A DNA stretch of 64,000 nt from Climacium dendroides. Its lineage: Eukaryota > Streptophyta > Bryopsida > Hypnales > Climaciaceae. The notes under the pieces are model-generated. The model worked only from the letters and a program-made list of their open reading frames with translations. It was not told the origin of the DNA and searched no databases. The translations under genes and the position numbers were made by a program. The DNA lies in contig OX467087.1 in assembly GCA_950106755.1 (NCBI GenBank), positions 19,658,047 to 19,722,046 of the forward strand. Direction: 5' to 3'. Positions within the stretch are counted from its first letter, which is position 1, and every line of letters begins with the position of its first letter. Below are positions 37,891 to 63,397 of this stretch, piece after piece.

Positions 37891-40800
37891 TCAATTCACT
37901 GGTACTGATACAGGCCCTGTTCGTTTGGGTGGGCGTTCCACAAGCAGCGGTGGATCCAAACTATCGTCTTCCCACCATTGCAAGGTCGATAGATCCGGAG
38001 AGGATTGCGCGGAAGAGACTCGTGAGTGATCACCTCGTGTTCCGAAGTCTTGTAAAAGCTCCTCAGGAATGGGTTGGCTGCCTTCCAGCATGGGAATCAG
38101 TTGTGAGATGGGTGGCCGGATTGAAGGACTATCTGTCGTGCACAGGAGAGCCACCTTGAAGACCCGCGCCACTTCGGCTCTTTCGAAGTTGCCAGACAAT
38201 CTGGAGTCCACATGACGCATCAGGAGCTCTTCGTCGCTTGATTCGCAGGATCGAAGGTAGGCACTCCTGATCTGCACACGTGAGAAGCGCGCGCTTACGT
38301 CAGAACGTAAACTTGCAAGTTCCACCAGTTTGGGGTAATGCCTCAAAAACAGATCACTGCCTTCAAAGTACTGAGCACAACCATTACAACTGTAAGAACC
38401 TGGATCTTCAAAATGTAAGCTCACCTCATCCAGGAGAAAGCACATAGTTCCGGAGAGACTGCGAGTTGTGGTTATCTTTCCCGTCACAATTTCCATCAAA
38501 AGTATGCCGTAGCTGAAAACGTCCACCTTTTCGGATAACTCACCACACATGATGTACTCTGGTGCCATGTAACCCCTGCAATCAGGAACAGCGCAAAAAT
38601 GAATATGAATACATCTTAACAGCCAACGGACACCGAGCGAACTAGAGGCATTGCATGTGAAAACATTTGTATCAGTCTACAATAAACTTCAAAGTTGCAC
38701 CGACAATTTACGCTTCATATTGTAACCCAGGTGCATACTAACTCTCCAACACAAAACACACCAGCATGTGCAACAAGAATTCCAGTCTTTAGTACAGTTT
38801 CAGTTTCACATGTGGTTGTCAGCACTTACATAGTGCCAACGAGATTTGTAGTAAAGTTCGTGTTATCATCAGGACACAGCTTCACCAGTCCAAAATCCGC
38901 AATTTTGGCATCGAACTTGGAATTGAGCAGAACGTTGCTGGCTTTGATATCCCCATGTATAATCTGAGAGTGAAGATCATTGTGCAGATATTGCAAACCT
39001 CGAGCAGTTTGAGTGGCAATTTTGTAGCGTGTGGGCCAATCAATACGTTCAGCTTCGATTGAGCTACCTGCATACAGTATTGCCCAAGTACATCAATTAG
39101 GTCTCGCTAAACCTTTGGGAGCGCACTATGGGCATTGTCTGAATACCATGTGCCAAGGAGACTAAATGTGATACATCTACTCGTAGAAATACACTCCCAT
39201 TGTAGACATGTTCTTCAAATGGACTAACAATATCCTATTTAATTCTAGATAGATAATAAATACGGAGTACTATTTTGAAAACCAAGGCAGACACTATATT
39301 TTATCAAGTTTCCAGTTTGGAATTGCAAATCCTGAGAACCAACTCTACAACGTGACAATGAAAACTTTTGTAGTCTTCCACAAGACCAAAGTCAAGAGAT
39401 GAAGCATAATTACCAAGAAGTGTTTGACGAAGGCTCCTCTTCTCCAGATACTCGTAGACCAGGAGTCTGTGCTTCCCCTCCACACAGAACCCACGTAACT
39501 TGACAAGGCTCTCGTGCTGCACCTTGCTAATGTTAATTACCTCTGCAAGAAACTCACGCTTCCCTTGCCTCGAACGATTCGTAAGCTTTTTCACTGCCAC
39601 TTGCGAACCATCCTTGTTTCGCCCCTGTCAAAATGTAACAATGTCTGTTAGGGGTTAATGGTTCGTGTGCGTGGAAATGAAGGAAATCAAGAAAAAAAAA
39701 CCACATCCACTATTCCAATTACAAGTGACATCGTCTGAAGTAAACCAACTTCAACATAAGTTAATAGTGTCAAAACCATGGTGTATTCTTGGTGAGCCTT
39801 ACCAGATACACTTCTCCAATTCCACCCTCCCCAAGTTTATTGTCTCTGTGAAAGTTGCGAGTCGCGACTTTGAGTTCTTTGTACGTGTACAAATAAGTCG
39901 ATAAGGATGCTTTCGCGAAATCTGTCCAAAAGCGAGCATTCCATATAAGAAGGGTGGAAGCATTAGCACATGATTCTTCAATTCCCAAAGTCGGAACGGC
40001 GTGAAAGGTGAACAAATTCATACAGGGTGTGTAAGTAGTGCCACTCTTCATTCTATTTCGTGTCCATCCGTCAAATACTGTGCCACTTATTTAGCAAGCC
40101 TTGCGCTGATTCAGAGCCATTTTCTTTTCAACTTCGCCATCTTCAATGCATATCACTTGGACCACATAAACTATTTGCGAAATGATGTTGCCCAGTCATA
40201 GCTACACTATTTGAAGGTGCTTGTATCAGCATCAAACCTAGAAAGTAGAATCATACACAAGATATAATAAGCAGAGTACCTTCTTTCATCCTGCGAACAG
40301 GTGATCGGGCTGCCACACACTGAAAAGCTAGACACGCCACCAAGAACAGAAGAAGGAGAAATATCCCAGCTCCTCCCAACCCCAGATATAAATGCAGCCG
40401 GCTTTCCTTTCCATCCTTGCTTCCACAAGAATTGCAGCAAAGGCTCTTCTTATACAACGACGCAGGAGACTGGCCAACAAATACGCTCTGTTCGCATAGA
40501 GGCCGTAACCCGGGTTCCACAAGCTTCGTGCACTGGCTGAGTTTGACCTGCGACATTGTTCAAAGTTTCATGCTTCAGGAATAGAGGCAAATTTGCAGTA
40601 CTTGGTCGATAATTAATACCGCTTCTGTAGCTTCTAAGTCAAAATTCTAACCGGTAGGGTGCATATCAAAACTTCCTGTTAAATAGCAAAACAAATAGGC
40701 TGCCAACACGCACACTTCGGAATATAATCTTGCCTGATGCAACTGGCAGGTCAAGGGAATTGCAGGTACGTTTGGATTCACGTATTTCTGCTTGATAATA

Positions 40801-43367
40801 TTCTCGTCAGTGTAGTTCACCGACACATCGATAGATGCAACGCCATACAAGGTTCCGTTCTCGAATACTGCACACGAACACCAGTCAAGATGAACAACTT
40901 TTGGTTGTACGAGTGACGACGAACTGATATACCAGAATTGCTCAGTGATCCATGTAGGACCAGGAAGACCAAATTGGGCGTCACGATTTTCTTCAGCACT
41001 TGAGAGTAGACCATATGTGGACTTCTTTTTGTTCAATTTTCAATTTCCCTTTTCGACCGACACACGCAATTTTCTTCACTGATTTTGGAGGATATAAATT
41101 TCGGTTGAGTCTGAATTTTACCGTTCACAATATTGTCAATGAAACTGGTCACTATAAACCACAAAACTCAGTCCTTTAGGGCTTGATGCACGTACCTGGA
41201 TAACTCACGGTAGACACGTTGCCCTGACCATTGACGCTCCCATAAACATCTGTCCAGAACGTAACATTTTCCTTGAACCGCATTGTGGCCTGGTAATCGA
41301 AGTAAGGGCGAATGGCCCACAGGGGATTTCGAACGGCATCCTGAGTATTCGTGTAAGTGACCGAGCTATTCAGTCGACAGGAGAATTTCCGCAAATCTGC
41401 AAGGGGATCAGGAATGGTCTCTCCATCACCTGGACCTAAACTGAAAAAGAAAACCACCACACCCTCCGAATTCAGAAGCGACACCGCTTTTTGAAATGCT
41501 GTACTAGAAAGGTTCCCAGCTTTGGAGAAGTAGCCGTCGGTCACCACCACTATCATCTGTCAAACCAAACAGACTAGGTCACAAACTAGACGAGGGAATG
41601 GATCACACATGATCTCCAATTGTGCACAGAAAATTGCAAACCCTAAAATCTTGATTGCCGCATACAGAGAGCACCATTAGGTGATCTAGGTTGTGTATAT
41701 CTCTCTGTACACAGGAATGTATGACGAAGTTTGAAGAGGTACTTTAAGTTTACTTGATGAGTTGAAGGTGGTCATCGCTCGCTCAAACCCCAGGCTAAGA
41801 TTCGAGAATCCTTCAGGGTTGTTCACCAAGGACGGAATGTCGAACGAAGAATGCACGTCTGCACTGCTTCTGGCAAGAACCTACGAAAGTCGAGGCGCCA
41901 GAAACGCATCATAAGCACTACTATCAACACTTTCCAATATAGATTGCCGAAAGAAACTGCGCACAATTTGAAGATCAAGCTGTGAACTATTTAGGGTTTC
42001 GCTGTTCTGATGAAGCGGAGAGAATAAGTACCGATGTTGGTTGCAACAGCGTTGCGCTTGTGGAGTCAAATGTAACCACATTGACAGAATCGGCGGCAGT
42101 AAATGTGTCGAAAAGCTCTGTGACAACGTTCGTCGCCGCATTAAACGTTGCATTCTGTTGCTGTCCCTTGTCGAGCAGCACCACTAGGTCTTTCACAACC
42201 GATGTCGACAACACGTACCTGCGTTGCAAGGAGAAACCTGTCACGATGACCAACATTCTTAATGCTAGGGTTACGAAATGCAAAAATTCGTTCCAACACT
42301 CACCAGGGTTGTTTCCGAGGGTCAAAATTGTAACAGTCCCCGTCTGGATTCGCTGCCTGCAAACACCGGTTTGGACATACCCAGCTTAGAAAATGAACCT
42401 TGACATTGTGCTCGTTTGGAAGAAAAAAATTGTGGATTGCGAGCAGTCTGAGATACTTACTCGACCTGGAAAGGCTCGATACACACCCTCGGCCGACGCA
42501 AACGCAACGCTGCGATCAGCAACAACACTACCGCCACTAGCAGCAAATTGAAGAGCCGTGTACGCGCAGATGGATCGCGTAATCTCTGAACTCAAATTCG
42601 AATTTGCAGCGTTTCTGAAATACGGCGGGAGCCTGCAGTCGAAGAACAATGAGCGCTCGTGGCAGAGAATTGAAAAGGCTATGGTGACAGAGAATTGAAA
42701 AGGCTATGGAGACAGAGACTGGCAGAACGCGTATCCTCTAGAGCACTGTGAAAGTGTTGATGGTAGTCCCCTTCCAATGACAGAAGAATTTACTCGCACG
42801 GTTGAAATTATGAGCGCGTACCTGACAAACCCATTCCCTCCGAAATCCAATTGAATTCCCTCGCACGATTCAGAGTTAAACTGGCAATCCGGAACTGGTC
42901 CTCGCGTCCCAGCGCAGGTGAAATTGTCTTTCGCAGTCGGCGTACACGCGTGCCGTGCGCAGGTTCGCACGCACTGCGACAGACCTGAAAACCAAGCAAG
43001 TCCCCAAATGATAAAAAAATCGATCCAAATTCACGCACAATGCAACAGAAAGGACTGTCTCGCCCGAAAGGAAATTCCGACGTGCTCCCGTGGTTACAGA
43101 ATCGATCGGAGAAAGAGAAAAATAAACACAAGAGATTTTGAACGCATTCTTTTCCCAGTATATAGATACAGTACCGCAGTCTTCTCTATCAAGAGCTAAC
43201 CGAAGGGCGTCACTGGCAAGAAGCCGCACTTTATTCTCCTCGGCCCCCAAATACGCCTCCAGGGAAGAATCTGCAGCCGCCGTCGCCGCCGCGTCGACGT
43301 CGTCGCCTATCCATGACATGAGCAGCAGAAACGATTGCAACACCAGCCCCCACTTGAGCTTGTCCAT
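37891..43367 (-). CDS. Receptor-like kinase with VWA and Cache-like ectodomain, copy A
   Basis: Fourteen exons: 43175-43367, 42822-42984, 42461-42632, 42304-42356, 42032-42218, 41743-41880, 41196-41556, 40734-40867, 40280-40547, 39803-39921, 39414-39624, 38830-39067, 38425-38575 and 37891-38271. They give 922 aa. The order is signal peptide (MDKLKWGLVLQSFLLLMSW), cysteine segment, VWA_N-like part, FDPRKQPWY, VWA (about 200-390), Cache-like region (VFENGTLYGVASIDV), cysteine stalk, transmembrane helix (about 520-545), and kinase (about 575-860). The glycine loop is GEGGIGEV and Lys608 is in VAVKK. The catalytic loop is HGD (704-706) rather than HRD, and DFG is 724-726. The MIDAS site reads LDKGQ. 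The intron at 40548-40733 has a GC donor. The kinase is plant-type; the ligand is unknown. Confidence 0.88.
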
Positions 43368-44706
43368 AATCACTCCCCCCAAGACCTCGCATTAATAATT
43401 CACACTCCGAACCCCCGGCCAAACACACACCAAAACTCCGATCATTCAACCCAGTAACCCTCACGGATCGACGGGGCTGCGCTCCCAACACACACCATCC
43501 GCAACCAAACTTGTTCACTTCGATCCTGTGCTCAAACACGTTCAAAAAAAAACTTCGATCTTTCAACACTGTAAACCTACGCAGCGTCTCCCCAAATCAT
43601 CCTGTGCTACTTCTGGCTAGTTCCGGTTGCACCCCGAAAGTGTGCCTCGCCGAAACCCAAGGACTTTTCTTGGTATTCCTCCGCCACCGACTTCCGCCGT
43701 TCATCCCGCAAACGCAGCATCCTCGTCGCAAAAACAAAATGTCCGAAATTGGCAACACCCGGCCAACCGAGTCGCGACTACAGTGCCAGTACTGTAGTGA
43801 TGGAACCTGGAATATGACGACAAGAAGGACTGCTAAAGAAAGTGAGTTGCCCCCCCAAGTTGAAGTTATTAACTGAACTTAACACAGTTACACCCGAACG
43901 AAACTGCAGGTTGCAAGGAGTTTCGTACTGAAGGAGTGGCGATCTAGCTGGAACCTCAGCTCAGTCGCGCACTGACAAGCTAGGCTCTGGACAGCTTTCT
44001 GGGAGCCTCAGTACTGCTCCTGTCAGTGAAGTGCTCACCTTCCCCACTCCCTCCCTCATCAGTCTCTCACTCACCCACTCACGCCATAACTTAGCTGGCT
44101 GCACAGCCAACAAGCTTTATTTGCCCAATTCTGCAACCTCATCAGTCCCAAAGTGCCAGCTTTGATGTGGCATACCTTACATTCCACCACTGTACAGTAC
44201 AGTACTGTGCGTAGCCGGCCCCCAAACTGGGCGAACTGATTGCTCGTGATTGCGGGGATCGATCTGCGCGCGCGCAGCGCAGTGCAGTGCCCCGTGCCTC
44301 GATCAACAAGACCGGGGCCCAGTGAAGGACGTGATTGCGTCGCAAGCGGGCACTAACTTCCTGTGCACGTCGAACGAACAGCCAGTTTCGATGGCCGATG
44401 GACTGGCAACGGGGTGATGGGCGCGAGGATCGAGACCGGAGAAGGCTCGATCAGGGAAGGACCACGGATGGCCTGGGGAAGCACGCCGGGTCAAGGAAAC
44501 AGCAGACCCGCCCGGGAGTGGGGCTTAATGAATGTGTTATAAGGGAGGATCCCAACTTATTTTGTGCAGGAGAATCGGCGGAGTCTAGATACGGGAATTC
44601 TTCGGCATTCATACGCTATGGGCCCTGGCTGACCGGGGTAGTGAGTACAGTACTGTACTGTACAGGGGGTGGGTGGGGTAATCTACAGTATAGTTGAGTT
44701 TCGTAA

Positions 44707-44966
44707 ATAATTAGGGAAAATTTGGAACATGTCTGAAATTTTAAAAATTGTACAACTAGGGATTTTCTTTTCAATTTCTTAAAATAATTATAATTAGGAA
44801 AAATTTGGAACATGTCTGAAATTTTAAAAATTGTAGAACTAGGGATTTTTTCAATTTCTTAAAATAATTAAGAAAAATTTGGAACGTGTCTGAAATTTTA
44901 AAAATTGTACAACTAGGGATTTTCTCTTCAATTTCTTAAAATAATTAGGAAAAATTTGGAACATGC
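44707..44966. repeat. Tandem array, units of about 74-83 bp
   Basis: Three full units and part of a fourth begin near 44709, 44792, 44866 and 44943. They share AAATTTGGAACATGTCTGAA, AAAAATTGTACAACTAGGGA and TTCAATTTCTTAAAATAATT in the same order. Confidence 0.9.
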
Positions 44967-47900
44967 ATAAATTTTTTTTTCAGATTTTCATTGGATAGGT
45001 GCCATTTCAAAATATCCAAAAAATATATTATTGAGGAAATCAATTTAGAAAAAGGGGACACATTTACACATGGATAGAAAAAATCAATCTAAGATTGAGT
45101 GTATTGAAAAAGTACAGTAGGAGGAGCAAAGTGGTGAAAAGTTTAGAAAAATCAAAGCGAGTTGCCGAACTGTCCAAATTCTAAAATTAAATTATTTTGG
45201 CGCCAAGATGGTGAATTTGACGTGAACGTATGGTATTGTGCCCTTTGCCATTGTTGCAACAAAAATGAAAGTGAAAAGTGATTTTAAAATTTTAAAATTC
45301 ATAAAAACTTTGAAATTCAATCATTTTTACACCATAGGTTCAAATGCCACAAAAACAAAGTTTGTGCACCCCTCCTTGCAAAGCACTTTTTAATGGTATT
45401 AAGAACAAGACTAGAGGATGCACAATCTAAGGGATCTTACTATAACAAACAAAACTAACTAATTTAAGGTATGGATTAACTTAAAGTAACTACACCTAAA
45501 ACGGAACACTCCTCAAAATCGACCCCTATTTTTGAAGGGAAGCTAAATAGGGAGGATACTCAAAATGGTGAGCATGACAAAGACGAGTGTAAAGTAAGTA
45601 GTGTGCAACTCTATCTATAATATTTTGGAAGTGGCACCCTTCCATATGGTCACTTTTGGATATATTTTCTAGTATTTTAACTTCTTCTCTAGTAGTATTT
45701 TTTCCATGTGCATCAAATGCATTTTGGCATCACCTACATAATAGTTTTAGTACCCCACACCTTACATCTTTGAAATTTTGTAATTATTCCACAATGCATC
45801 CAAAAATTATGGAACCACTTGCATTTTGATTGATAGTCTTTCAACATTGTGTAAAAATTGTTGTTCATTTTCTAAAGCATATTGATTATGCCACAAAGCT
45901 TATTCATGCAATTTTTGATGTATTTACTTCAAAGTTATTCAATACATCTAAAACCAACATGGCATCCTAAAGCAATACTATGTATAAATGTTTTAGAGTA
46001 AACCAGCCATTTACTGCACACATCTAAAAACCGCACAACAATTATTGCCAATCACCACACAATAAATGCACAATTCAAATACCAATTCAATTGTGATGGG
46101 AACAAAAATTTGCATCACCACTCAATGACCGCACACTATGCCATAAAGGGTTCAAAGGAATTTTTAACTAGATTTCAAGAACATTGCCTTTAAATTGCAA
46201 TAAAATTTATAAAAGGAAATCTATTGCATTTTGTCTTTTGAAGGTAAACCTTAACATAATCATTAGATGTTTTTTAGCTGCAGTGGAAGGTCGTTTTAGG
46301 CTTGTTCTCCATGCTAAGAACCAACCATTGCTAGCTAAATTAAAAATTATTAAAAATATATTAAAATTTTATTTAGATTAAAATATATTTAAAAATATTA
46401 AAAATAAAAGGTAAAAAGCAAAAAATATTAAGATTTTATTTATTATTATTATTTGACGTGACACTTGCTTGGCCACATTATATTGTTGCTACAACAGAGT
46501 TTCTACAATCAAGAAACTTGTAGGAACTTCAAGTCCTCTAAACATCCAAAATTTCATCTAATGATTTAATAATCACGCCAAATTTCAAAACATGTAAGTC
46601 TTTATATTTATATGGAGAAGGATTTGAATCTTATTTTCTGTGGTGATTGGCATATTTACTATACATTTGATGCAATGAAATGCGTGCCACTACTCCATTG
46701 ATAGTGTTACCATGAGCAAAAGTCCATTTGTAGCATAATTGACAAGTCCACCATAATATAATTTTACAAGTTAAAGGAGACAAATATATAAAAATTGGCT
46801 TTCTAAATTTTCTAAGTATATTGATTTTGGATGTACTTACCAATCAACTTGAAAAAAAGGGAAAAAAGGGAAAAAAGGGAAAAAAAAAGAAAAGAATCTT
46901 TAGTTTGCTCTTATATGTCAAATGGAGGTTTGGTGTTAAAGTGGAGGTTTGGTGTTAAACATGTTGTGAAAAATGTTGATGTAAATGTGAAGCATTCATT
47001 TGTTGATCAAATGGCTCTTAGAAGGAACTACATTGTCATTCATTGAAAACATTACAAGGGATTTGAGGGTATGGGAGGACTGTTTTAGGCATTTTCTTCA
47101 ATTAGAATATTTAAATAATAGTAAAATTTATTAATAAATAATATTATCTTACATGGCACGGTCACGCCCACGTCAGATGTTGATTTAACAGAGTTCCCAT
47201 AGTTCTTCACAATTTGGGAACTCCTAAGAACTCACGGTCTTGTTCGAGCTCCAAAAATCTTCTAATGGTACAATGGATATTTCATATGACACATAAGACA
47301 CCACCATCTTTTATCTTTGAATCAACATTCAATCATGTAGAAGGTACATATCAATTGGAAAATACAATAGTAAGAACAGAAAAAAAGAAGAATTAAAAGA
47401 AATGTATGATACTATTGTTTGGTGTTGAATGACAATAACAATTGACTATTACTATAGTTTGGTAGCAAATTGAGCAATCATTACCTTTGAATGCAGTACT
47501 TTATACAAAAATATAATTTAAAAAATGCCAAAGATTGAGCAATATTTGCTAACAAGCTTTTTCATTTAAAAACTTCTTTAATTTTGACATTTATTTTACC
47601 CAAAATCTATTACCATGCAACAATATATATCATTTTGAGCTGATGAGGTGTCAATGAAGATAAGCAATTTTTACCCCTAAAAGAACTTAAAAGAACTTGG
47701 TAGAAGGGGAATTATTTTTGAAATGGAGATTTTGAGGCAAAATAAAGCATAGCTTAAAAGACAACACAAAAGAATCTTTGCGTTTAATTAGTGTTTATTC
47801 TTCTACCCATCACTACATAAACTCAAATTAGAACCTTGTACAAAAAAACACAAAGCACCAAGTGACCAAACTAGTCACATAATTGAAGAAAAGACAACAC

Positions 47901-49012
47901 AAAATTGTTTTTTTAATGTACATGGATGTAATTCATTCATTTTGTCTAACTCCTATAAAGAAGGATATCCAAATGCGTCACTAACCCAAAACAACATGTT
48001 CTTTTTTGGCAATTTAGTGTCCATTTGCACCAATTTGAAGGTTTTTTTGCATTTTTTTGTACTTTCAATATCATTTTGTTTCAAGAGCATGGTGTTGGGC
48101 CCATTACTTTAAAAAAATTCTTGGATAAAATTGCTAGATTGTAGATGAAAATAGAATTATGGTCATGTGATATTTACTAATGTGATATTTTTCTATACAA
48201 TGTGTGGATCAATGTTGAAATTTGGAGCACCACTATAACATTTAATATCGCCACTTTGGCACTTCATAAAAAAATGAAAAAATTAATCTTGAAGTGTCAT
48301 CTTTACTATACAAAATAATGAAATTAAATTGTTCCACACTAATTTCTTGCCATTTGACACTATATAAAATATTTTCAATCATTGTAGAAGAATTCAATGT
48401 ATATTGTACACATGGAGATGAACCTCCATGTGTACAATGCAAATTTTTTTAGAAATATTTATTATTGACTTTGACAACTTCTACATTAACTTTCTTGATG
48501 CAAGGCAACCTAATTGTTAAGGCAACCTAATTTCACTATTTTGTGTAGAACTCTTCTTATCCTTTTAGTCTTTTTTAGTTACATGTAACGTGGGTACCCC
48601 CAAACCGCCACTTTTTGGTATTGTGCTTAATTACTATTTTTAAAGTGGTCAAATTTTCATATTTGCTTGTTGGCAAGTGAAAGGGGGTTCCAACGCACCA
48701 AAGAACGTGATGTTTGGATACAATATGCACAAAAGTTACCAAGGAATGAAGTTTGGTTCTAAAAACAGTTTCTTCAACTTAGGTACATAACTGATTTTGG
48801 AGATGTTCACATAATGAAGATGTCCGTTTAGGGTCAGTGGCGCATTTGGGTTGCCGACCTCAAGTCCACCCTAATGCTGCTACTGTATTGCAGTTCCCTT
48901 GAAAAGGAGGATGCTGACATAAACTGCAATTCTGGACTAGTAAGCAGCTTGATCGGAAGAAGGAAAACACTACCTCCGAATCTCATAACGAAGGTCAAGA
49001 CGGTGGGTAGAC

Positions 49013-49311
49013 TTTAAAAAACGCAAGAGTGCTGGGACTCCGAAACGCAAGAGTACTGGGACTTTAAAACGCAAGAGTACTGGGACTTTAAAACGCAAGA
49101 GTATTGAGGCTTCGAAACGCAAGAGTGCTGGGACTTTGCAAGAGTGCTGGGACTTGGAAACGCAAGAGTGCTGGGACTTGGAAACGCAAGAGTACTGGGA
49201 CTTTAAAACGCAAGAGTACTGGGACTTTAAAACGCAAGAGTATTGAGGCTTCGAAACGCAAGAGTTGCAAAAGTGCTGGGACTTCGGAACGCAAGAGTGC
49301 TGGGACAGACT
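49013..49311. repeat. 24-bp minisatellite, about 12 units
   Basis: The unit is close to AACGCAAGAGTACTGGGACT plus TTAA. Variants carry TATTGAGGCTTCGA or GTGCTGGGACTTGG. The order of variants suggests a block of three to five units was itself duplicated. The frames read repetitive Lys- and Arg-rich peptide and are not taken as coding. Confidence 0.92.
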
Positions 49312-49459
49312 TTGGTGAAATTCAGAACACTTAGTAACCCTGAAAATCTGGATGGAAATGCGGAAGCACTTTCTGATTCATAATCCATTCCTGAAACACG
49401 TTTCGACATGTCCGGAGAAGCCTCTCCTGCAGAGTCTGGCAGAGGGAGCTCTCCAGGTT

Positions 49460-49530
49460 GGTCCCGTAGTCTAGCGGTCAGGACATTGGACTCTGAATCC
49501 AGTAACGCGAGTTCAAATCTCGCCGGGACC
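49460..49530 (+). tRNA. tRNA-Gln, anticodon CUG
   Basis: The acceptor strands GGTCCCG and CGGGACC pair fully. The anticodon arm TTGGA-CTCTGAA-TCCAG places CTG at positions 34-36, reading the glutamine codon CAG. The T arm GCGAG-TTCAAAT-CTCGC is perfect. A-box (TAGTCTAGCGG) and B-box (AGTTCAAATC) promoters are inside the gene, and a TTTTT polymerase III stop follows at 49531. No intron is present and CCA is not encoded. Confidence 0.97.
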
Positions 49531-49857
49531 TTTTTGCTTGGGAATATCGACGTGGGATATCCGACCTGGTTTACCCCCAATTCTTTTGGCATTACTCCCT
49601 TCTTCCGTCCCGAAATAATTGTCCACTTTGGATGTCATAACCCCTCATCATCTAAGGCGTATTTGAGTTTATTTGAGTTTAAAAACATCGTTGCTTTTGA
49701 ATGGTTGTAGTTCAAAATGTCACTAAGTTATAGAGATCTCAACCGTACAATTTTATAGTGTACGTGTCGTAGATGATGTGAATCAAATTTGGAGTCATTT
49801 GACCACATAGATTGGAAGATTATAATGTTTTAGTGTTGAAAAAGGATGCTGAAATTT

Positions 49858-50102
49858 TCCTAACAATACATTTGGAGATGAAATTCGGTTTCTAAACCTA
49901 TTCATATGCAAAAAAAAACCCTTTAAACTATAAAGTGATTCCTAATAACACATTTGGAGGTGAAATTTGATTTCTAAACCTATTCATATGTAAAAAAATC
50001 CCTTTAAACTAAAAAGTGATTCCTAATAACACATTTGGAGGTGAAATTTGATTTCTAAACCTATTCATATGCAAAAAAAACCCTTTAAACTATAAAGTGA
50101 TT
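49858..50102. repeat. Three-copy tandem repeat, 81-83 bp unit
   Basis: Units begin at about 49858, 49941 and 50022, each with CCTAA-AA-ACATTTGGAG and then TTTCTAAACCTATTCATATG. The second and third are nearly identical, while the first differs more. Confidence 0.92.
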
Positions 50103-51978: not shown

Positions 51979-53045
51979 CCCCTAAAGGATCATTATTGGC
52001 ACTTTAAAGAACAAATGGTGGGAATTCAGGTAGGTACCTATAGTCACAATTTTTGTCATGATTTTTTTAAATTGTTTTTAAAGATAGAAAAATTGATTAG
52101 CTTTGTGGGAATATTAATTTTTTTTCAATTAGTGCCCAAGAAATAAAAGTTATGTCCAAATAAGCTCGGAACAAGGAAGAAGGGGCAACAAAAAAAATTT
52201 CAAAAATTTGAATAATTTTTTTCTCATAGATTATATTTTTGTCTACATGGGAAGCTTTGATTCATTCCATTTAGATTCATTATGAGAAAATTCATGAACA
52301 ATCTTGTTTTTTGAGCAAACCAGAGCATCTTTTTCGAAAAACAACTTATGAGATTCATTTTTTAATGCAATTTTTGTAATTTATCAAGAAAAAAATTTCC
52401 ACATGGTTTAGTTTGCTTGCTAGAACAATCTCACCATTGAAATTAGTGCATTTTAATTCCATCTTAGAGATATTAATAACTTAGATTTTCCTTCTAAGTA
52501 TCTTGTACCTACTTCTACTTAATATTTTTTTAAAGAATAAAAATGAAGTTTTTTGTATTTTTTTTCTCTAGACCTTCAACTCAATTCTCTAGTCCCCCAA
52601 TGTGTTGAAACCTTTTTTTTTCTACTTTAAACATAAATATCTTGCAATTTGTGTAGTCAAGATTATTGAATTTTTTTTGACACATTCTCATACCAGTTAG
52701 GTGTAAGATCCTATGGTTAGGTGTGCAAAAAAACACATACAACAAGTTTAAAGTTTTTTTACTCTTTGCTATAGAAATGGCAATTTTCGAGTGTTTTTTG
52801 TAGAAAAAAAAGGCCTTGGTCCTTTAGACTGATGTTAAATGCAAATATCTTGCAATCTATGTGATTAAAGTTTCTGAAATTTTTTCCGCACACTCTCATA
52901 CTAGTTAGGTGTAAGATCCTACAATTAGATATGCAAAAACCCCCGAAAAACAATACTCAAGTTTTTATTTACTCTTTGCTATACAAATGATAGTTTTGAG
53001 TGTCTTTGTTTTTTTATTTATAAAAAAGCGTTGGTCCTTTAAGGG
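51979..53045. mobile_element. TTAA-type repeat element, long copy
   Basis: The left end follows TCAA as CCCCTAAAGGATC. The right end is GGTCCTTTAAGGG before TTAA at 53046-53049. The right part, about 210 bp, is tandemly duplicated (about 52623-52838 and 52839-53045), and both copies contain GTTAGGTGTAAGATCCTA. The middle aligns by eye with 14620-15300. Confidence 0.6.
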
Positions 53046-54999
53046 TTAAGTGGTTGAACTGAAATGGGTCTGCTACTTTACTCCAAAATTCATTCATGCT
53101 CCCCAAATTGATCTGAAAATTTCGGAATAGAAGTCTGTTATTATTATATTGTAGAAAAGTGTAGGTGATATAAATAACGGTTCAGTGAGTGACTCCAGTC
53201 GGTCCGTGCCACTCACTCCACTCTTCAGTTTGGATTTGCTTGCGCCATTATTTCCATGTTTGGCTCTTCTTTTGAGGCACGACGTGTTCTTCCCGCAGAT
53301 TTTGCACTTCGTCACCTTCCCTCCTCCTCCCTGAGTCCCTGTCCACGCTGCAGACTGATCGACTTCCTGCTCTGCTCTGCGCTGCACTGCGCTGCACAGG
53401 AAAAGACAAGACAGGACAGGACAGGGCGGCAATCAATATTCAATGTCAATTTGTCATTGTTGTTCCTGTCTGTCCTCCTGCACCCAAGCCAGGCGCAGAT
53501 GACAAATGCAGACGCCAGCCAGCTTCGTGACAACCTGCACAGCTTACCACCTGGACTACAGCAACTGGAGAATCAGACACAGGCACAGACACAGACAGAG
53601 ACACTTCAAGCGGTGTATATGGTGAACTTCGCTTCACATCTCTTCTCACCCTCTCACTTCAGTTATTAGTTGAGTCAGTGGCGGACTGGGTGGGTCAGTA
53701 TTAGTTTAGATCAATTTATGAGGATCTGAAAACATGCCTGAAATAATTGGAGAAATTGGAGGCACAGTATTCGGGTGTACAGTGATAGAGTTAAATGTTA
53801 TCGAAATGTAGTCGTCGTCTACGGACCTTAGCTGCGTTTTGGTCAAGATCTTTCATAAAAGCTGGTTAAGCTTTACCACTTACGGAAGATGACTAGATGT
53901 AACCAAGCCTTGGTCAGAACCCGCAGTGACGGAAACCAGGACTGGGTGCGACACGGACTTTCTGAAATGATGATATTCTGGCAATTTTTTTTTCTGAGTT
54001 GTACGAAGACTGAGTCCGCTTGAGATGAAATCATTGGAATGCTCTGCAACCAACATCCTCCTCTCAGGGCGGCACTCATTTTGCTGGGCACTTCAATAAC
54101 GTCATGGCAGGTCATGGAGTGGGTGGTAGTTTTTTTTTAGCGTTTTTAAATTTATATTTAGGATATTTTGCATTTTCTTGCAATTTTTGTTATTCTTGTA
54201 TCATACTTCAGGACAAGGGACACTTTTTCTCCCAGTGGATCAAGGCTGCTTTTGGTGTATGATAAGTTAGAAAATCTTGAATTCAAGATTGCCACAACAA
54301 TTTGTGAGCCATTTGTACAAGGAATTATTCTTAGAATAGTGACATTAGAATAGTGACATTGTTGGAAAAGGCTTCCCTGTTTTCCGTACTCGGAGTATAT
54401 TATGTTTGTTGGGGTGATTCCACGAATCTGGTTGCGTAACGTTATTCAGCAAGGCTCGAAGTCCCCCTCCTATTTACAAAATCAAGAGGTTGAATATTGT
54501 GTTGTTGTCAGGTGTTGAAAATTCAACAACCAAGTCAAGAGGTAAGCTAATCCGGAAAGTTACCAGTGAAAAACAACTACAGTAAGATGAATTCAAAGAG
54601 GGCAACGGCAAGAGGTTGGAGGAGTCGGAAGTGTGCAATCAGCATAAAAATGGATCTTTGCTAGTCTAAATCTTGGGCTACTTTAACAACTTTCGTGCAT
54701 AGACTCACAAAAACGCCCCAATTGCATTCCTGAGTGAAGTTATGTAACGCTACCAATTATACATAATGTTTCTATTAGTGTAGTCGATACAATACATTTC
54801 CTCACGATTTAGAACACGTTTTCAGCGAAATATCTCAAAACATCTGGCTAAATAATCACATTTTCTTCCGACAAGCTTGTAGCTACGTTAGAGCATATTT
54901 TTCTGATACTACTTGAAATCGAGCCACTGGATGTGAGGGTAAGCCTCGAAGCAGGCAGCCATGTGATCTGCTAAAGCTAAAGGTGAAGCAGGAAAACAT

Positions 55000-55575
55000 T
55001 CACACATCCCAACACTCGTTCATGCTGACACCCAAGGAAGTACAAGAGTTGGTAAACTACTGTTTCCTCTTCTCCTGCCACGACTGCCAGGTACGATCTT
55101 CAGTACTCCGGGGCTTGCCGACCTGTTTCTAGCAATGCAGCAGATAAAAATCATATTTAAGCCAACCTCATCCACATCCACATTCACATCCAATCCACAG
55201 GCGAGCATTTCGAGTGAGACTTCATAATTCTAATCCAATTAAGCCACTCGGGTAATGCACTGCACAAAAAAAGGGGGTTGGCAGCAAACTTCTATCTGCC
55301 CTCAGCAAGGGAAAGAGATCCTATCTACTCTTGTACTAGCACTGTTGGTGGCGGAGGTATTAGATAGAATAGGACCCGATTCTAGATTCGCACTAAGCAA
55401 GATCAACCTATTTCTTGCAATGCAGCAGATACAAATCATATTTAAGCCAACCTCATCCACATCCGCATCCACATCCAATCCACAAGCGAGCACTTCGAGT
55501 GAGAGTTCATAATACTAATCCGATTGAGCTTCTCAGGTAATGTACAGTAAAAGAAAAAAAAAAAAGAGGTTGGCA
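55000..55575 (-). pseudogene. Tandemly duplicated 3' end of receptor kinase copy B
   Basis: Two relics of a unit of about 288 bp lie downstream of the copy B stop codon. One keeps the coding tail: the minus-strand frame reads [17 protein letters not shown], against [17 protein letters not shown] in the real C terminus, and it carries the same TTGGCAGCAAAC and CCCTCAGCAAGGGAAAG downstream. The shared block GCAGCAGATA-AAATCATATT occurs at 55137 and 55423. The relics lack any kinase sequence and are not expected to be functional. Confidence 0.75.
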
Positions 55576-55588
55576 GCAAACTATCATA

Positions 55589-58500
55589 CTATCTGCCCTC
55601 AGCAAGGGAAAGCTTGACGGTGGGGAGGCTCGTGTCTTCTGTAATACTAGCACTGTTGGTGGCGGAGGTGTTAGATAAAATGGTTCCTGATTCTAGATTG
55701 GCCACACTAGGCAAGATCATAAAAGAATAATCATCGTTGGTAGAATCCCACAATTCTATGTCGTAGAGAGGCGAAGTCCGGAGGTTCTGATTGATGAGGT
55801 ACTTCAGCACATACTCCGGAATGGGCTGAGTACCTAAAAGCATGGCCAACACTTGAGAGATTGTAGGGCGAGAGGCGGGATTGTCATTCGCGCAGAGGAG
55901 AGAGATCTTCAGCACCCGGATCACCTCCTCTTTGTTGAACGCGCTGTGCAGGTTGGCGTCCGCCAGGCGCAGTAAGTGTTCCTCGTTGCCGGATTCGTGA
56001 GCCTTCCTGTACAGGTCCCTTATCTGCATAGCAACAAAGGAGCAATTGATATTCTTGGTAAGGTTGAGGACAACTGACTAGGGAGATAATCCTCTCTCCT
56101 ATTTCACTGACCCCCGATACCAACAGTGACTCATCTCTTGCAATCAGGAATAAAGACTTGCCACTTACTAGAATTAAGCAAAAACTGACTGGAACTCGGA
56201 TGTCTTAGGGAATATCGCGTATTTCTTTGTGAATATGAGAAAAACCTCATTGAAGAGGAAGTAGAGAACTTTGATGCCAAAATGGAGTGATATTCATTTC
56301 CAAAGTTTGCTCGACTAGAGCATTGGTAATTGATAGTAGGGTCAACCATGACTTAAGCACAACATGGTTGAAAGAATACAATGAGCACATGAAATAGTGG
56401 TTCACGTAATGACGCTTGTTAAAAGGCTTCTTCCATTGTGGCGGTTTTCAGAGCCTTGTTTCACCATTCATACCAATATTTTAGGTGGCCACATTTAGGT
56501 CGGTTGGTAATGGGTGCTGGTACCTTACACTTGGTTGACATGTATTCAATAAGTAAGTTGGGTGTAAGCATGACTTGGCTGATAATGTCTATGGTCACAA
56601 ATCTTTGAATGGAAATGGGTTGCCTTAAGTTCCTTCCAATACAGGTCTACAAACTCCCACTTTGAATGACGGCATTAGAAATCATCATACGTATGTGATG
56701 AAAATTTGATCTCAAGAGAGTTTGGCTCTCGTACCCAAAATGATCTTTCCATACAGATCTCCCAATGAAAGCACACTCCCCAATATTGGTTAGAATGCTT
56801 AAAAGGACGGAAATAGTATCCTCTACCTTACTAGGTGATGATTAAATAATAGACACGAAAAGCTATGTTGAAATGAAAAGATTATTTGGCAGTGGATATG
56901 ATGAGCGCACCTCGTCAATCAGACAGCTAGGAGTTCCATACTGCGTAACACTCATAGTAATTCTGCCAGTGACAATCTCCATGAGAAGGACGCCATAGCT
57001 GAACACGTCCACCTTCTCTGTAAGCTGACCTCGTGTAATTTCGGGTGCCATGTACCCTCTGAAACACATAGCGTTGCACGTTATTTTAGAAACCTGCAAA
57101 TGAACCCTGGATGCAGGATGTCACCAATTTGAAATACAAGGCTTCACCGAATAATTGCTACGAAGTGCACTGAAAACTCTTTATTAAGAACTTATCTCAA
57201 ACGACATTTTACAATATACTGCGCACTTGCCACACTATAATTGACTACAGCACACTTGTCATGCATTCAAACTACATCACAGTGAAAAAGTTGGAACCCC
57301 AATGTTAAGGAAGTTTGAGTGAAGCATGTCATCTCTGTAAGAAGAATTCACAGATATCAATCTGGAAATTGTCGCAGCCATTGCATCAAAAAGCAGTGGA
57401 TTTCATGTGTAGTGAAAGAGAATAGAATCAAGAGGCTGGGATGAGAATATACTTACAGAGTACCAGCAATGGCTGTGGTCAAATGGGTTTGTTCGTCAGG
57501 ACAGAGCTTGGCCAGCCCGAAGTCCGAAATTTTGGCTTCCAGATTGCTATCCAGAAGGATGTTACTCGCTTTAATGTCCCTGTGGATGATACGGGGATTT
57601 ATTTCGTCGTGTAAATAGGCGAGACCTCGAGCAGTTCCCACAATAATGTTAAACCGGGTTGGCCACTCGATAGAAATGATTTCCTCCGGGGTCCCTGAAG
57701 AGTTGCAAAAACATCTGATTATATTATTTACCCATGTGAACCCTAAAACCCAAAATCCAAGGAACAAAAGAGATCACCAGATTGGCTTCCAAGTAAGTAT
57801 GATCAGCTCACAGTAGAAATACCTCGAAATCATGAAATGTCGCCCTTCATTTGGCCCCTCTTTCAAATTTTATCCTAGATTGCATTTGAATTTGATTCAA
57901 TATTGGTTCCATTTGTAAGGAAGACATTTCGTGACTTATAGGATAACTCTAATTGGGTGGAAAATTTACCAAGTAAAGTTTCACGAAGACTTTTGCCCTC
58001 CAGATACTCGTACACGAGCAGTCGGTGACGGCCTTCAACGCAGCAACCCCGCAATTGGACGAGGTTTCTATGCTGCACTTTACTAATAATCGTCACCTCC
58101 GCCAAGAACTGGGGCTTCCCTTGCTTGGAGTCAAGAGCGAGCCTCTTCACTGCCACTTGCGTTCCATCCCTCATTTTTCCCTGAGGACAGTTCAGGCCAT
58201 AATCCAGTTGCGAAACCAACGATTAGAGCACGCATTATTTAATCCCTATAAATACAAATACGGTGACGCGCACTCAAAACAATAGCAGACCTGAGCAGGG
58301 CTTCTTTTTCATTTTCTCAGAAGTGCTAAAGTGGCGATTTAAAATTTGAGAGTGGTGCTCCAAATTTCAACATTCATATTGGATAGAAATATCACATTAG
58401 CACATATTACATGTCTATAATTTGATGTTCATTCACAATTTAATGATTTCATCCAAGTTTTTTTTTTAATTTGAAGTTTTTTTTCCGATTTCATCCAAGT

Positions 58501-61500
58501 TATTTCTGGTTTTTTTGGCCCTTCTTTAGCCAGATTATTTTTTCTGGTGCAATCTGGCACCAGAAAGCCAAAAAAAAGCCCTGGACCTGAGCCCCTGCCC
58601 AACACCGACCCCTGTCAGCAACAGCAACTCATCTGTACGTTCACCTTGGTTGACTTCTTAGCAAGTGATGGAATCATTTAGTGCAGGACTGGTTGAATGT
58701 CTACGGCCGCTGGCAATTGAATGAAAATGTCCGCTGTCACTACTAAGGACTACCTACTATCCATTTCAGACCTAAATATAGGGGCGATTTGAAGAGGCCG
58801 CTGGCTTTTAGAGCAGGGTCTCTCACATTGAAATTGCAGAAGACGTGCATACACAGTGATGAAAAGCTTGATCTCAAGAAAGTTGGCTATTACAGCCAAA
58901 GATCTCACTACTGCACACTACACACCTTCTGAAATCACGGAAGATGCTCTACCTTAACCTCCAAGCCTTGTGTCCCGGAGAATGACTACCGAAACACTCA
59001 ACGTTCACAGCACGCTGCAGGTAGTGTAGTGCAAATGGAATGAAAGATCGTGCGTAAGCTTACCAGAAAAACTTCCCCAAATCCACCCTCGCCCAACTTA
59101 TTGTCTTTGTGAAAATCACGAGTCGCCCTTTTGAGCTCCTTGTACGTGAACAAGTTGGTAGATATCGACGCCTTCGCAAAATCTGAACCGGAAGAAACAA
59201 ACCATCAAACCTTAATTGTTGTAGTCGGTTCCTCCATCCACTGTTACCAGAATCAACCACAGGTATTTGAAACGAGAATAGATTCCCAGAGTATTAAACC
59301 CCTGAAGGACCAAGGAGACCAAATTGGGACTCATGTTATTCTAGCAGTTTTCAGCAGGTAATCTGGGGACGCTTTTTCTGTCCGAATTCATATAGTTTGG
59401 GACCCAAAAATAAAAGACATTTCACGGATTTGGGTAACATAAACAATTTGGTCTCGTTTGAATTATATGATCCATACACGATCGATTGAATTGGTTGCGT
59501 AACAACCATGTCGATCGAGGCCTTGGTCCTTTGGGGTTAGGGGTCAGGGTTTAAGGAAGAAGGGTGCCAGCCCTACCTTCTTGAATCTCTCGAACGTACT
59601 TGCGGGCAGCTCGGTACTTGGTAGCCAGAACGACAATGATAATCATGAGAATGATAGCGAAAACACTGGTTCCCAACACGGCCAAATAAACCGGAAGCAA
59701 GTCTCTTTTCTTGTGATGCTGAACGGCGCATTCGTCACAACACAACAGCATCTTGTAGACGTCCTCAGGGTTTTCATTCAGATACACATCTTGCTCACAA
59801 AGCGGTTTTAGGCCAGGGTCCACCGCTTTTGTGCATTGACTCAAATTGACCTGCCAAATCACAACTCCCACAAACATGTCAAACCCACTTCCTTCTCAAC
59901 AATCTGACTAACGTAACAGCACCTTTCAAAAACCGACCTCTACAGATTCTCGCCTAATCCAGCCAAAAATTAGTCCATTTAATAATGGGAACAATGCTCA
60001 ATTGCATATTTGGATGCATTTAGGTGTAGTTACTTTACACTCAAATCTTACAGGCAGTGTTCCCAGAATTTTCACTATGACAGATAACTCCGGTTCAGTA
60101 AGAGGCTGTTTGTTCAAGGTCCACAGGACAATGACAAAGAGAACGATACACCTTTCTTCACTATTACATAGTAACGTCAACATTATTATATTAGCAGAAA
60201 TTCACAGCATTTGTGTGATTCCAGGCACCAGTTTGAAAACTTAAATCCATACTGGTCCTAGTTTTTAAGAGCTTCACTGTCACAATCGCAATTTTAATGC
60301 TCTGTGTCGCGTCATTGTAACAGCATTGACGCTTGATTTGACTGTGATAAGTGTGACATTGGTAACAGTCAAGACAGTGGCGAAAGCGCAGGGTATTGTG
60401 CTTGCTGTGATGAAGGTCAATTTGAGACTCACGTTTTGTAATTGGCATGGCAAGGGGATGGCCCTAACATTAGGATCAACAGCTTTCTGCCGAAGGATGA
60501 CATCGTCGCTGGTGTTCACAAACACGTCAATGCCTGCAACGCCATACAAGATTCCGTCCTCGAAAACTGCACGTGAACATCCAGCACTTGGTGTCAAGCT
60601 CTTCGACAAATGTTCCATTCCTAGTTATTTTCAAACGGAAGAAACAAGCAAACCCTCTTTGAAATGTTTCGCAACTTGCAAATTTCAACAAACACAGAAG
60701 CAAAATCACAAGCGATAAAGAATCCATCACTGGTACAAAGAACAAACAAGGCTACAGTATGGACTTTTTCCAAGAAGCTTCATTAAGCGTGAGAACTTCA
60801 CCGCCAACTACACAAATTTTGACCAATTCGAAGGACATAAACTACACAAGAATTACAAGGAGACGCAAAGGTCATGGGGATGAGCAATAGTGAGCCAAAA
60901 CGTAACTAGGAATATAAACACAGCAAATCAAAAGAGAGTGGAGGAACAGAGGAGACATGCAGAGCAACAAACCCTAAACCTCACTACCGGTATTCCATTT
61001 CGACATGAGATTTGCAACAAAAGATTTCGAAACATACAGAGAACTGTTTCATTGCAACTGTGCTGGCTAGTCTAGGCTGCACAATTACCTGGATACGTAA
61101 CAGTGGCGACCTCGCCCAAACCATCGAAGTCGAGATAGGGCTCCGTCCAGAACGTGACATTGGGCTTGAACCTCAAGGTTGCTTGGTAATCGAAGTAGGG
61201 ACGAATGGCCCAGAGTGGATTCCAAAGCGCATCGAGGTTACTGACATAAGTAACCGAGCTGTTCATCTGGCAGGAGAGCTTGCGCAGATTTGTAAGTGGA
61301 TCAGGAGGATTGTCCTCTTCACCCGGGCCGACGCTGAAGAAGAACACAACAACGTTATTCGCATTCAGATCCGCAATGGTGCGGTTGAGAGCCAGGTCAT
61401 CGATGTTAGAGAATTTGGTCCCATCCGTGAAGACGAGGATTATCTTCAGCTGGCTTCTAGGATTTAGGGTTGCCAATGCGGCGTCAAATCCGACAGTAAG

Positions 61501-63397
61501 GTTCGAGACACCGTTCGGGGCTTTGTTGATTATGTTGGAAAGGTTGAAGGTCGAGCTGAGCGATGCGCTGTTGTCCGATGCGCTTATCGGTATCTGAAAG
61601 ACAATTCCCATTCAATCCGTAAATAGAATAGTGAGGTTTAGGATTTTGTATGAATTGTACTAATCTTAATTAATAAATACCTGGAAATCGGAAAACTACC
61701 GATGTCATTGAAATTGCAGAAGAGAAAGTATGAGATTGTGTGCACAAGAGGTGCTTCGAGGGTTGAGACGATTTCAGTTACTTACGGAAGTCGGTTGCAT
61801 CAGAGATGCTGAAGTTGCGTCAAATGTAACCACATTGACAGTGTCGTTGGTTAGCATTGTGTCGAAAAGCTCTGAGATAACGTTTACCGCTGAGTTAAAC
61901 GTTTCAAGTGTTTCCTGTCCTGTGTCGAGAAGCACTACGAGGTCTTTTATCACCGCAGTTGCCAGGATGTACCACGGGCGTTTGCGAGGATCGTATGAGA
62001 TGCAGCTTTTATCAGGTTCCGCTACCTAAACAATAAGCCCAGTTTAGGATACAAATGAACCTCGCAAAACACATTTCGGACAATATATGATACTTGCAGA
62101 TGTAACCCAATTGTAACACCATTAAGGGTAGTTTCACGAAATTTCAAGTTTGAAACTGCTTTACATGGTGGAATTTACAATTGACGAAATTTAACGCAAC
62201 AAGATGTTCTGGGAGTGTTTCTTCCTCAAGGTGTGAATCTCTGTGGACTATGGTCTCTTTGGAGCTTACCCGTCCAGGGTAGCTTCGCCAGACACCTTCT
62301 GCAGAGCCGAAGTAGTTCCAGAACGTGAGATTGATGTGGCTGCTAGAGGTGAACTGAAGATTGGATTGCGAGCAGATGGCTCGTTTGATTTCCGGTCTCA
62401 GATTCTCATTCGAGTAGTTGCTGAATGTGGGCGGAACTCTACACAAATATTAGACTCCCATGAGTCAGTTGGAAACAATGCAACGCGAATCAACAAAGGG
62501 CCTCAATAGAAAGCCAGGAGCGAGAACAGAAATCAGCTTACTTGACGAAGCCGTTCTTGCCGAAGTTAAGCTGCAACTGCAAGCATGTTTTGTTAGGGTT
62601 CAATTCGTCGCAATCCGCCACGGATCTGAGCGTGTTGGCGCACAAGAAGATATCGTTGTGGGTTGCAGAGCAAGCATGCCGCGCGCAGTTGTCCACGCAC
62701 AGGGATAGCCCTGCAAAAACGATCCATTCCTGTCAGTCGAAATCCAACAACTTACTGCGTCCTCCCCTTGCAACCGACACCAATAACCTCGTCCGTGATT
62801 GTTGCGCCACAAGGAAGTATTTCACAATCCCTGTTATTTATTATTCAATAACCACATCCGGAAAATTTTGCAACATTATCTTGTACATAGAAAACTTCTT
62901 CCTCGGGGAGTTTGAGACGCCGCAGGGATTTTCTAGGCTTTTACTATGAGCATACGAGGTTATGACGCAGGGATTACAATCACAGAAAACACGCAAAACA
63001 TGACGAAGTCATAAAATATTTTGGTTCAACAAGGATCATACAAGGCATATGCATGCATTTCCCTGATCTCATAAAAACTCGCCTGACATTGCATATACCG
63101 GCACAGGAAAACAGACGATTCACTACTGCCTTGTCCTCATGAGGACTTCGTAATCTCATGCCTGGGCTTACCGCATTCATCCTTGTCCTCAGCCAAGCGA
63201 AGCGCATCATCGGCTAACCGCCGCACGTTCTTCTCCTTAATCTCAAAATCGTCCAGCGTCATGGACTGCGCACGCAACGCGGCCCATGACGTCACCAGTA
63301 GCAACCAAAGCACGCACGCCCACACTCCCATCCCTCCCAAACGTGGCCGCGAATTCCACGCAGTCGTCTTCCTGGAGCTCGTGATGCTATGTTCCAT
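55589..63397 (-). CDS. Receptor-like kinase with VWA and Cache-like ectodomain, copy B
   Basis: Twelve exons: 63172-63397, 62542-62710, 62270-62438, 61786-62025, 61089-61593, 60433-60566, 59577-59850, 59064-59182, 57970-58180, 57457-57694, 56911-57058 and 55589-56023. They give 955 aa. The N-terminal hydrophobic stretch is [18 protein letters not shown]. The VWA_N-like part is [17 protein letters not shown], then [10 protein letters not shown] (199-208). The VWA domain has LDTGQ (221-225), GVSN (296-299) and TDG (324-326). The Cache-like part includes [30 protein letters not shown] and [16 protein letters not shown] cysteine stalk and a transmembrane helix (about 532-557) follow. The kinase has GEGGFGEV, Lys624, HRD (720-722), DFG (740-742) and APE, so it should be active. 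It is the tandem paralogue of copy A, 12 kb away on the same strand. Confidence 0.9.
56114..56742. repeat. Dispersed intronic repeat, copy in the last intron of copy B
   Basis: One end reads TACCAACAGTGACTCATCTC and the other has CTCCCACTTTGAATG and ATCTCAAGAGAGTTTGGCTC, matching the ends of the HPPD intron 1 repeat. The interior is longer than in that copy. Confidence 0.5.
58306..58583. mobile_element. Non-autonomous hAT transposon with 8-bp target duplication
   Basis: The 278-bp element starts CAGGGCTTCTTTTTC and ends, in reverse complement, CAGGGCTTTTTTTTGG. Both flanks are GACCTGAG (58298-58305 and 58584-58591), a perfect 8-bp target duplication as made by hAT transposases. It lies in the intron between the exons at 58180 and 59064 of receptor kinase copy B and has no coding capacity. 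Confidence 0.9.
58614..58905. repeat. Dispersed intronic repeat, second copy in copy B
   Basis: This has the CAGCAACAGCAACTCATCT end and the CTCACATTGAAATTGCAGA and GATCTCAAGAAAGTTGGCT end found in the HPPD and last-intron copies. It begins 22 bp after the hAT target duplication. Confidence 0.5.
59298..59536. mobile_element. Short TTAA-flanked MITE in a copy B intron
   Basis: The left end ACCCCTGAAGGACCAAGG follows TTAA (59294-59297). The right end in reverse complement is CCCCAAAGGACCAAGG and precedes TTAG (59537-59540). The 239-bp body is non-coding. The ends resemble those of the larger TTAA family in this window. Confidence 0.7.

Follow-up and report, generated by a model that had tools for sequence, protein, structure and literature searches.

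Cache domains in plants and fungi are described as limited to histidine kinases (PMC4822843, 2016), and the double Cache domains of eukaryotes as occurring only in alpha2delta and Cachd1 (PMC12303104, 2025). In alpha2delta-1, the dCache_1 domain is split by a von Willebrand factor A (VWA) domain, and its amino-acid motif is split with it (PMC9901441). VWA receptor kinases have also been named in print as a moss-specific subfamily of receptor-like kinases (RLKs), within RLK-Pelle_DLSV; the available text gives the name only. Here, we describe two adjacent genes, A and B, in a stretch of 64,000 nucleotides (the window; C35:19658047-19722046, on contig OX467087.1) within the 412.6-Mb, 123-contig genome of the moss Climacium dendroides. 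Both genes join an ectodomain, through one membrane helix, to a kinase of plant receptor type.

To judge from its sequence, the ectodomain is best read as a module of the alpha2delta/CACHD1 type, in which a VWA domain separates the two halves of the pocket motif in the ligand-binding half of a dCache amino-acid sensor like those of bacteria. On this module we build a tentative proposal, to which we give a probability of about 0.4. B and the paralogues with the full motif (on contigs C37, C1, and C40) would be receptors for extracellular free amino acids, built on the gabapentin pocket of alpha2delta-1; the module would be a bacterial sensor acquired long ago by eukaryotes, made into channel subunits by animals and joined to kinases at least twice in this plant lineage. 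For the pair taken by itself, the odds seem slightly to favor B as a receptor kinase for a small amino acid, with A as a diverged copy.

Kinship to the animal proteins is visible in the ectodomain of B. In single-sequence phmmer searches, it matches alpha2delta-1 in the PDB at E 5.3e-14 (B residues 171-439 against 6jp8_F 178-442) and CACHD1 at E 1.1e-6, values that lift the likeness to alpha2delta-1 above chance. A profile of A and B together recovers alpha2delta-1 at E 2.2e-13, and CACHD1 is not listed up to E 1. The VWA domain is recognized by Pfam VWA_2 in A (28.3 bits; cut-off 27) and in the isolated VWA of B (28.7 bits, E 2.2e-6), while whole B fails with 25.1 bits; in NCBIfam, one VWA model matches at E 1.6e-4, below its cut-off. 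An earlier examination of these letters without database searches (the sequence-only reading) had described VWA_N, VWA, and Cache in that order. The alpha2delta-type ectodomain stands, and the three blocks make better sense as a single Cache sensor into which a VWA has been inserted. The motif letters it quoted are true of B; A differs, reading AFASAEGVYRAFPG and FDPRKQPWY, and one 18-letter stretch is common to both.

Bacterial relatives reveal how the ectodomain is put together. The flanks of the VWA align with uninterrupted bacterial dCache domains, so the VWA appears to interrupt one Cache sensor, as in alpha2delta. With the VWA excised, B gives weak matches to alpha2delta-1 (E 0.0039-0.0099, or about 0.2 for its best stretch by itself) and to the amino-acid chemoreceptors PctB (0.0077) and PctA (0.053), and chance-level matches start not far below these. 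A scan of GTDB with the pattern [YF]D[PV]R[KR][RQ]PWY, which puts the first half of the motif, and not the second, into the matches by construction, yielded at least 58 confirmed loci encoding relatives, from at least 588 candidate stretches. Among the matches listed, the tblastn match spans both flanks with no VWA between them at L007, L008, and L020, and falls on one flank only at nearly all of the other 55. Pairwise against VWA-excised B, the 58 GTDB loci listed all score 90-184, led by L001 with 184 (41/85 identical) and L008 with 183 (36/77); alpha2delta-1 scores 130 (34/66), and 300 shuffles of B set against 20 of the 58 loci score at most 59. Sequence patterns mark 14 of the at least 58 loci as Ser/Thr kinases, and Pfam finds Pkinase together with dCache_1 in 14/14; all lie in records titled metagenome-assembled genomes. 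This bacterial joining of Cache and kinase is independent of the plant one, because the kinase stands on the other side of the helix.

The pocket motif is complete in B, where Y199, R204, W206, Y207, Y421, and D450 supply 6/6 residues of the amino-acid-binding motif. The first five align directly with alpha2delta-1; D450 is placed by the bacterial GVxGxD, because the alpha2delta alignment stops short of it. The motif is printed as YxxxRxWY (PMC9901441). alpha2delta-1 itself reads YDVRRRPWY, which is one residue longer than the printed form if the third Arg is meant; the same paper indicates that it is, and B has the longer spacing. For gabapentin action in alpha2delta-1, Arg241 and Asp491 (that paper's numbering) matter (PMC9901441). 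A retains 4/6 residues (F, Q, W, Y, Y, D), with the essential Arg replaced by Gln and Tyr by Phe. The earlier small-molecule reading finds no such support in A, where the motif Arg is missing; given that loss and the HGD of its kinase, A has probably given up this kind of amino-acid binding.

The size of the predicted ligand can be approached from the same alignment, which places Trp182 of B and a Tyr of A at the position of Ala217 in alpha2delta-1. alpha2delta-3 and -4 have Phe there, and docking to them accepts small amino acids only (PMC9901441); by this analogy, Trp182 predicts a small ligand for B. A small free amino acid would bind the Cache half of B, more likely one of glycine or alanine size than a bulky one, again in view of Trp182. 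The bound ligand would alter the pairing of B ectodomains or of their single helices, and the changed pairing would switch the active-looking cytoplasmic kinase, which would then phosphorylate partners. A could act as a partner or sense something else.

The pair belongs to a larger family. Searches of the genome with the B ectodomain (at least 36 matches) and with the module of a further locus, L099 (at least 24 matches), place the VWA-Cache module at 17 or more loci by position: 9 from the B ectodomain and 8 further from the L099 module. Several of the 17 are known by a single exon match, and some may be fragments. Among the 11/17 loci read, six carry a kinase: A, B, L095 (C37), L096 (C1), L097 (C40; last exon in L105), and L098 (C38). 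The kinases of the first five are of B's kind. That of L098 matches FERONIA best (191 bits); by its genomic placement, it follows the helix at a distance of about 0.8 kb, with the same orientation. For the other five (L099, L100, L101, L106, and L107), two kinase probes found nothing credible downstream, over more than 11 kb for L099, L100, and L101 and about 3.5 kb for L106 and L107. In these kinase-less loci, the helix exon continues into a short tail and then a stop, though a kinase farther away may be reached by splicing that skips this stop.

The state of the motif varies across the family. All 6/6 residues are present in L095, L096, and L097, 5/6 in L098 (Y to F) and L106 (D to N), 4/6 in L099 and L100 (last D to T, second Y to F), and 2/6 in L101; only the second half of the motif lies in the stretch read for L107, where Y and D are present. 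These counts assume that an intron divides the Trp codon of L096, L097, L098, and L106, as it does that of A. The whole motif is kept in 4/6 kinase-bearing versus 0/4 fully scorable kinase-less members, and the last Asp is lost in 4/5 kinase-less members, being Thr in three and Asn in one, and persists in L107. A tree of 12 rows, built on the module's second half, unites the five kinase-less rows (99/99) and requires two changes among the kinase-bearing ones; 6/9 inner branches of this tree are unsupported, and alpha2delta-1 (3.5) and L098 (1.74) are long branches. It favors neither transfer of the module from animals nor an old eukaryotic origin. It is the difference between the kinases, not the tree, that argues for two captures: the best match of B is BAK1 (253 bits), that of L098 FERONIA.

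Several observations weigh against an amino-acid receptor of alpha2delta type. Pfam finds neither VWA_N nor dCache_1 in whole A or B; its Cache matches are to MCP-like_PDC_1, at E 0.0031 and 0.0042, below that family's cut-off. Excising the VWA from B still brings no Pfam Cache or VWA_N match above cut-off (VWA_N reaches E 0.078 only; dCache_1 gives none). A VWA_N probe of the whole genome tells neither for nor against, since it returned 0 matches there and 0 in the control genomes as well. The membrane-proximal half of a dCache is unrecognisable in the ectodomain. The kinase-less L099 module reaches alpha2delta-1 only at E 0.015, and in Pfam has matches below cut-off only. Motif residues are lost in A and in the kinase-less L099, L100, L101, and L106, so the pocket is not family-wide; alpha2delta has the pocket and is no kinase, and its surface level does not respond to Trp or Phe by themselves (PMC9901441). 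The Cache fold and the pocket of B are predictions from sequence. The sequence-only reading had staked its case on a significant VWA_N or Cache hit: Pfam-A alone gives none, and the likeness emerges with solved structures and bacterial relatives.

The most serious alternative, which we nonetheless hold to be unlikely, is that the module is purely protein-docking: the VWA or the surface of the Cache would dock a ligand (from the wall, a peptide, or a co-receptor), with the pocket as a structural relic. CACHD1 provides the precedent, since it binds LRP6 and FZD5 through its ectodomain, and LRP6 by the dCache surface (PMC7615972); the terminal Asp missing from 4/5 kinase-less members and the Arg missing from A would also suit a relic. 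However, a relic would not require all six pocket residues in 4/6 kinase-bearing members and five in a fifth, and the degenerate metal ion-dependent adhesion site (MIDAS) speaks against metal-dependent docking by the VWA. Considerably less probable is an ectodomain that senses an amine or another small metabolite in place of an amino acid. dCache_1 amine sensors are said to derive from an amino-acid sensor (PMC10104139); in the same source, however, two positions at the start of the motif, one aromatic and one positively charged, are unconserved in amine sensors, and B has both (Y199 and R204).

We consider it very improbable that A and B regulate an ion channel as plant homologues of the auxiliary subunits of calcium channels. 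Their sequence kinship to alpha2delta-1 favors the idea, and B shows a hallmark of alpha2delta, a first Cache sensor interrupted by a VWA; land plants, though, are not known to have a four-domain Cav alpha1. The MIDAS, intact in alpha2delta-1 and -2, has the general form DxSxS. B reads D-TGQ and A reads D-KGQ, versus DVSGS in alpha2delta-1, and the later TDG is kept in both; these letters make it unlikely that the VWA docks through a metal in the manner known from Cav channels. About 90 residues separate GVAGID from the helix, compared with 240 positions in Pfam dCache_1, which leaves no room for a second dCache, and Pfam has no match in that interval. The sequence-only reading had likened the ectodomain to that of alpha2delta, a likeness that stops short of the second dCache. 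Furthermore, the helix of B is followed by Pkinase (E 1.5e-49) and not by a glycosylphosphatidylinositol (GPI) anchor, the attachment of alpha2delta (PMC9901441). With MIDAS, second dCache, and membrane anchoring all differing, and a kinase attached, the channel-subunit reading is rejected. Ion sensing through the VWA is likewise unsupported, the MIDAS serines being missing; the small-molecule part of the earlier "small-molecule or ion sensor" retains the intact motif of B in its favor.

The gene models on which this account depends are complete for both copies, which lie side by side on the minus strand with B upstream; their exons were spliced by hand (Table 1). Introns are GT-AG in 11/11 cases in B and 12/13 in A, where one, after 40734, is GC-AG. 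Each of the 11 introns of B is matched by one of A in alignment column and in phase, those linking ectodomain, membrane helix, and kinase among them; A has two extra. The proteins are 55% identical and have all 16 cysteines of the mature ectodomain in common. By NG86, dN is 0.37 and dS 2.57 over 876 aligned codons, a ratio of 0.14; dS is saturated, and the ratio therefore tells only of long-standing constraint on both copies. Among eight stretches tried, YN00 gave a value for the VWA alone (ratio 0.41; NG86 there 0.25), and two short stretches yielded no dS by NG86. Hydropathy places one membrane helix in each protein, between ectodomain and kinase; at the N-terminus, where a signal peptide would be expected, it peaks at 1.94 in B, and A has no peak there above the threshold of 1.6. 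A tandem pair with its ectodomain joined through one membrane helix to a plant Ser/Thr kinase, as first proposed, is borne out by the models, the shared introns, and hydropathy. An artefact in which ectodomain and kinase exons come from separate genes, the outcome by which the proposal was to be overturned, is scarcely credible and is rejected: the joining is read from genomic sequence, the linking introns of A and B agree in column and phase, and in A, B, L095, L096, and L097 the exons run on one strand from ectodomain through helix to kinase.

The layout is that of a plant RLK/Pelle receptor kinase: an ectodomain, one helix, and an RLK/Pelle kinase. The assignment of the B kinase to RLK/Pelle follows from its best solved relatives in the PDB, BAK1 at 253 bits against 160 for IRAK4; we take it to be like the LRR-VIII kinases. 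No ectodomain match that would mark a further tandem copy was found within 40 kb past the B-side end of the window or 20 kb past the other end; beyond the ends there are only weak kinase matches, in L064. The 3' end of B, part of the last exon included, is locally duplicated just downstream (55121-55557; 55319-55391 / 55630-55702). A short dispersed repeat, 82-84% alike, occurs inside a B intron (58305-58471) and at 12636-12811 and 48109-48282.

Table 1. Predicted features of genes A and B, with positions in the window, and the bacterial dCache_1 kinases
Feature	Position	Strand	Content	Basis
Gene B	63397..55589	-	12 exons, 955 aa, single reading frame, phases close	
B exons 1-6	63397-63172, 62710-62542, 62438-62270, 62025-61786, 61593-61089, 60566-60433	-		
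B exons 7-12	59850-59577, 59182-59064, 58180-57970, 57694-57457, 57058-56911, 56023-55589	-		
B exon 3	62270..62438	-	First half of split Cache, with Trp182	phmmer to alpha2delta-1; VWA-excised to PctB
B exon 4	61786..62025	-	YDPRKRPWY (Y199, R204, W206, Y207), then VWA start, degenerate MIDAS DTGQ	
B exon 5	61089..61593	-	Remaining VWA, return to Cache (WTEPYLD, Y421)	VWA_2 on isolated VWA
B exon 6	60433..60566	-	End of Cache half, GVAGID (D450)	MCP-like_PDC_1 below cut-off; bacterial alignments
B exon 7	59577..59850	-	Cys-rich juxtamembrane stretch and membrane helix, residues about 537-555	Hydropathy
B exons 8-12	55589..59182	-	RLK/Pelle kinase (VAVK, HRD, DFG, APE)	Pkinase E 1.5e-49
Gene A	43367..37891	-	14 exons, 922 aa	Spliced frame
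A exons 1-7	43367-43175, 42984-42822, 42632-42461, 42356-42304, 42218-42032, 41880-41743, 41556-41196	-		
A exons 8-14	40867-40734, 40547-40280, 39921-39803, 39624-39414, 39067-38830, 38575-38425, 38271-37891	-		
A exons 4-5	42032..42356	-	FDPRKQPW/Y, motif Arg = Gln, intron within Trp codon; VWA start DKGQ	
A exons 7-8	40734..41556	-	Remaining VWA and Cache (VYGS, GVASID)	
A exons 10-14	37891..39921	-	Kinase, HGD replacing HRD	Pkinase E 4.2e-46
Bacterial dCache_1 Ser/Thr kinases			L004, L006, L007, L008, L010, L014, L017, L018, L020, L022, L023, L029, L055, L057	

Elsewhere in the window, a long open stretch at 18626-19705 (minus strand) belongs to a 4-hydroxyphenylpyruvate dioxygenase (HPPD) gene, matching solved HPPD at E 2.9e-130 and 437.7 bits; these solved relatives are presumably Arabidopsis HPPD. 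The stretches 15387-16059 and 22584-23092 hold the arms of three inverted-repeat pairs, spaced 6.5-7.5 kb, which suggests a mobile element whose ends are inverted repeats. On the minus strand at 30891-32562, two long reading frames look like coiled coils and match no Pfam family above cut-off. A tRNA-Gln (CTG) gene occupies 49460-49531 (plus strand), near a 24-base tandem array at 48995-49289.

The sequence-only reading took these proteins for a plant receptor class not yet described. In part this is superseded, since the name of a VWA RLK subfamily exists in print; in part it survives, as our search, which left most subscription literature outside, found among the papers listed no description of a plant VWA-Cache receptor kinase, of a relation to Cache or alpha2delta, or of a pocket. 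By word search, "VWA" and "cache" are absent from the main text of a plant-receptor survey (PMC10834447), an RLK review (PMC10868138), and a streptophyte genome paper covering domain combinations (PMC11096116). A and B stand as a counter-example to the restriction of plant Cache domains to histidine kinases (PMC4822843) and, at least for the ligand-binding half, to that of eukaryotic double Cache domains (PMC12303104). B may let the plant sense a small extracellular amino acid, and the genes provide a hypothesis, worked out to single residues, of how a plant receptor kinase could perceive amino acids, as well as a plant comparison for the origin of alpha2delta from a bacterial sensor. As neighboring copies, one with the pocket kept and one with it lost, they form a natural contrast.

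Five known systems come closest to A and B. They resemble the named VWA RLK subfamily in carrying a VWA ectodomain on an RLK/Pelle kinase; that subfamily, as described in the text available, is given no Cache, pocket, or alpha2delta relation. With the bacterial dCache_1 chemoreceptors (PctA, PctB, and the Thalassospira locus L001), B shares the pocket motif and the flanks, up to 41/85 identical, but these receptors have no VWA insertion in the aligned loci and a chemotaxis-type output. The bacterial dCache_1 Ser/Thr kinases also combine Cache and kinase, and L008 and L014, for example, have PY(I/L)D, GxG, and GVAG in common with B; unlike B, they carry the kinase N-terminal to the helix and the Cache C-terminal to it, without a VWA. 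CACHD1 (PDB 8s7c), a type I membrane protein with VWA and dCache (PMC7615972), is like B in these respects, and its layout of ectodomain, helix, and cytoplasmic tail recurs in the kinase-less paralogues; it combines two dCaches with an FZD-binding domain and lacks a kinase (PMC7615972). With alpha2delta-1 (PDB 6jp8, 8fd7, and others), B shares WxxFGSAxG...YDxRxRPWY, a VWA inside the Cache sensor, and WTxxYLD...PVF; alpha2delta-1 differs from A and B in its MIDAS serines, its second dCache, and its GPI-anchored end, in place of which the moss proteins have a transmembrane kinase.

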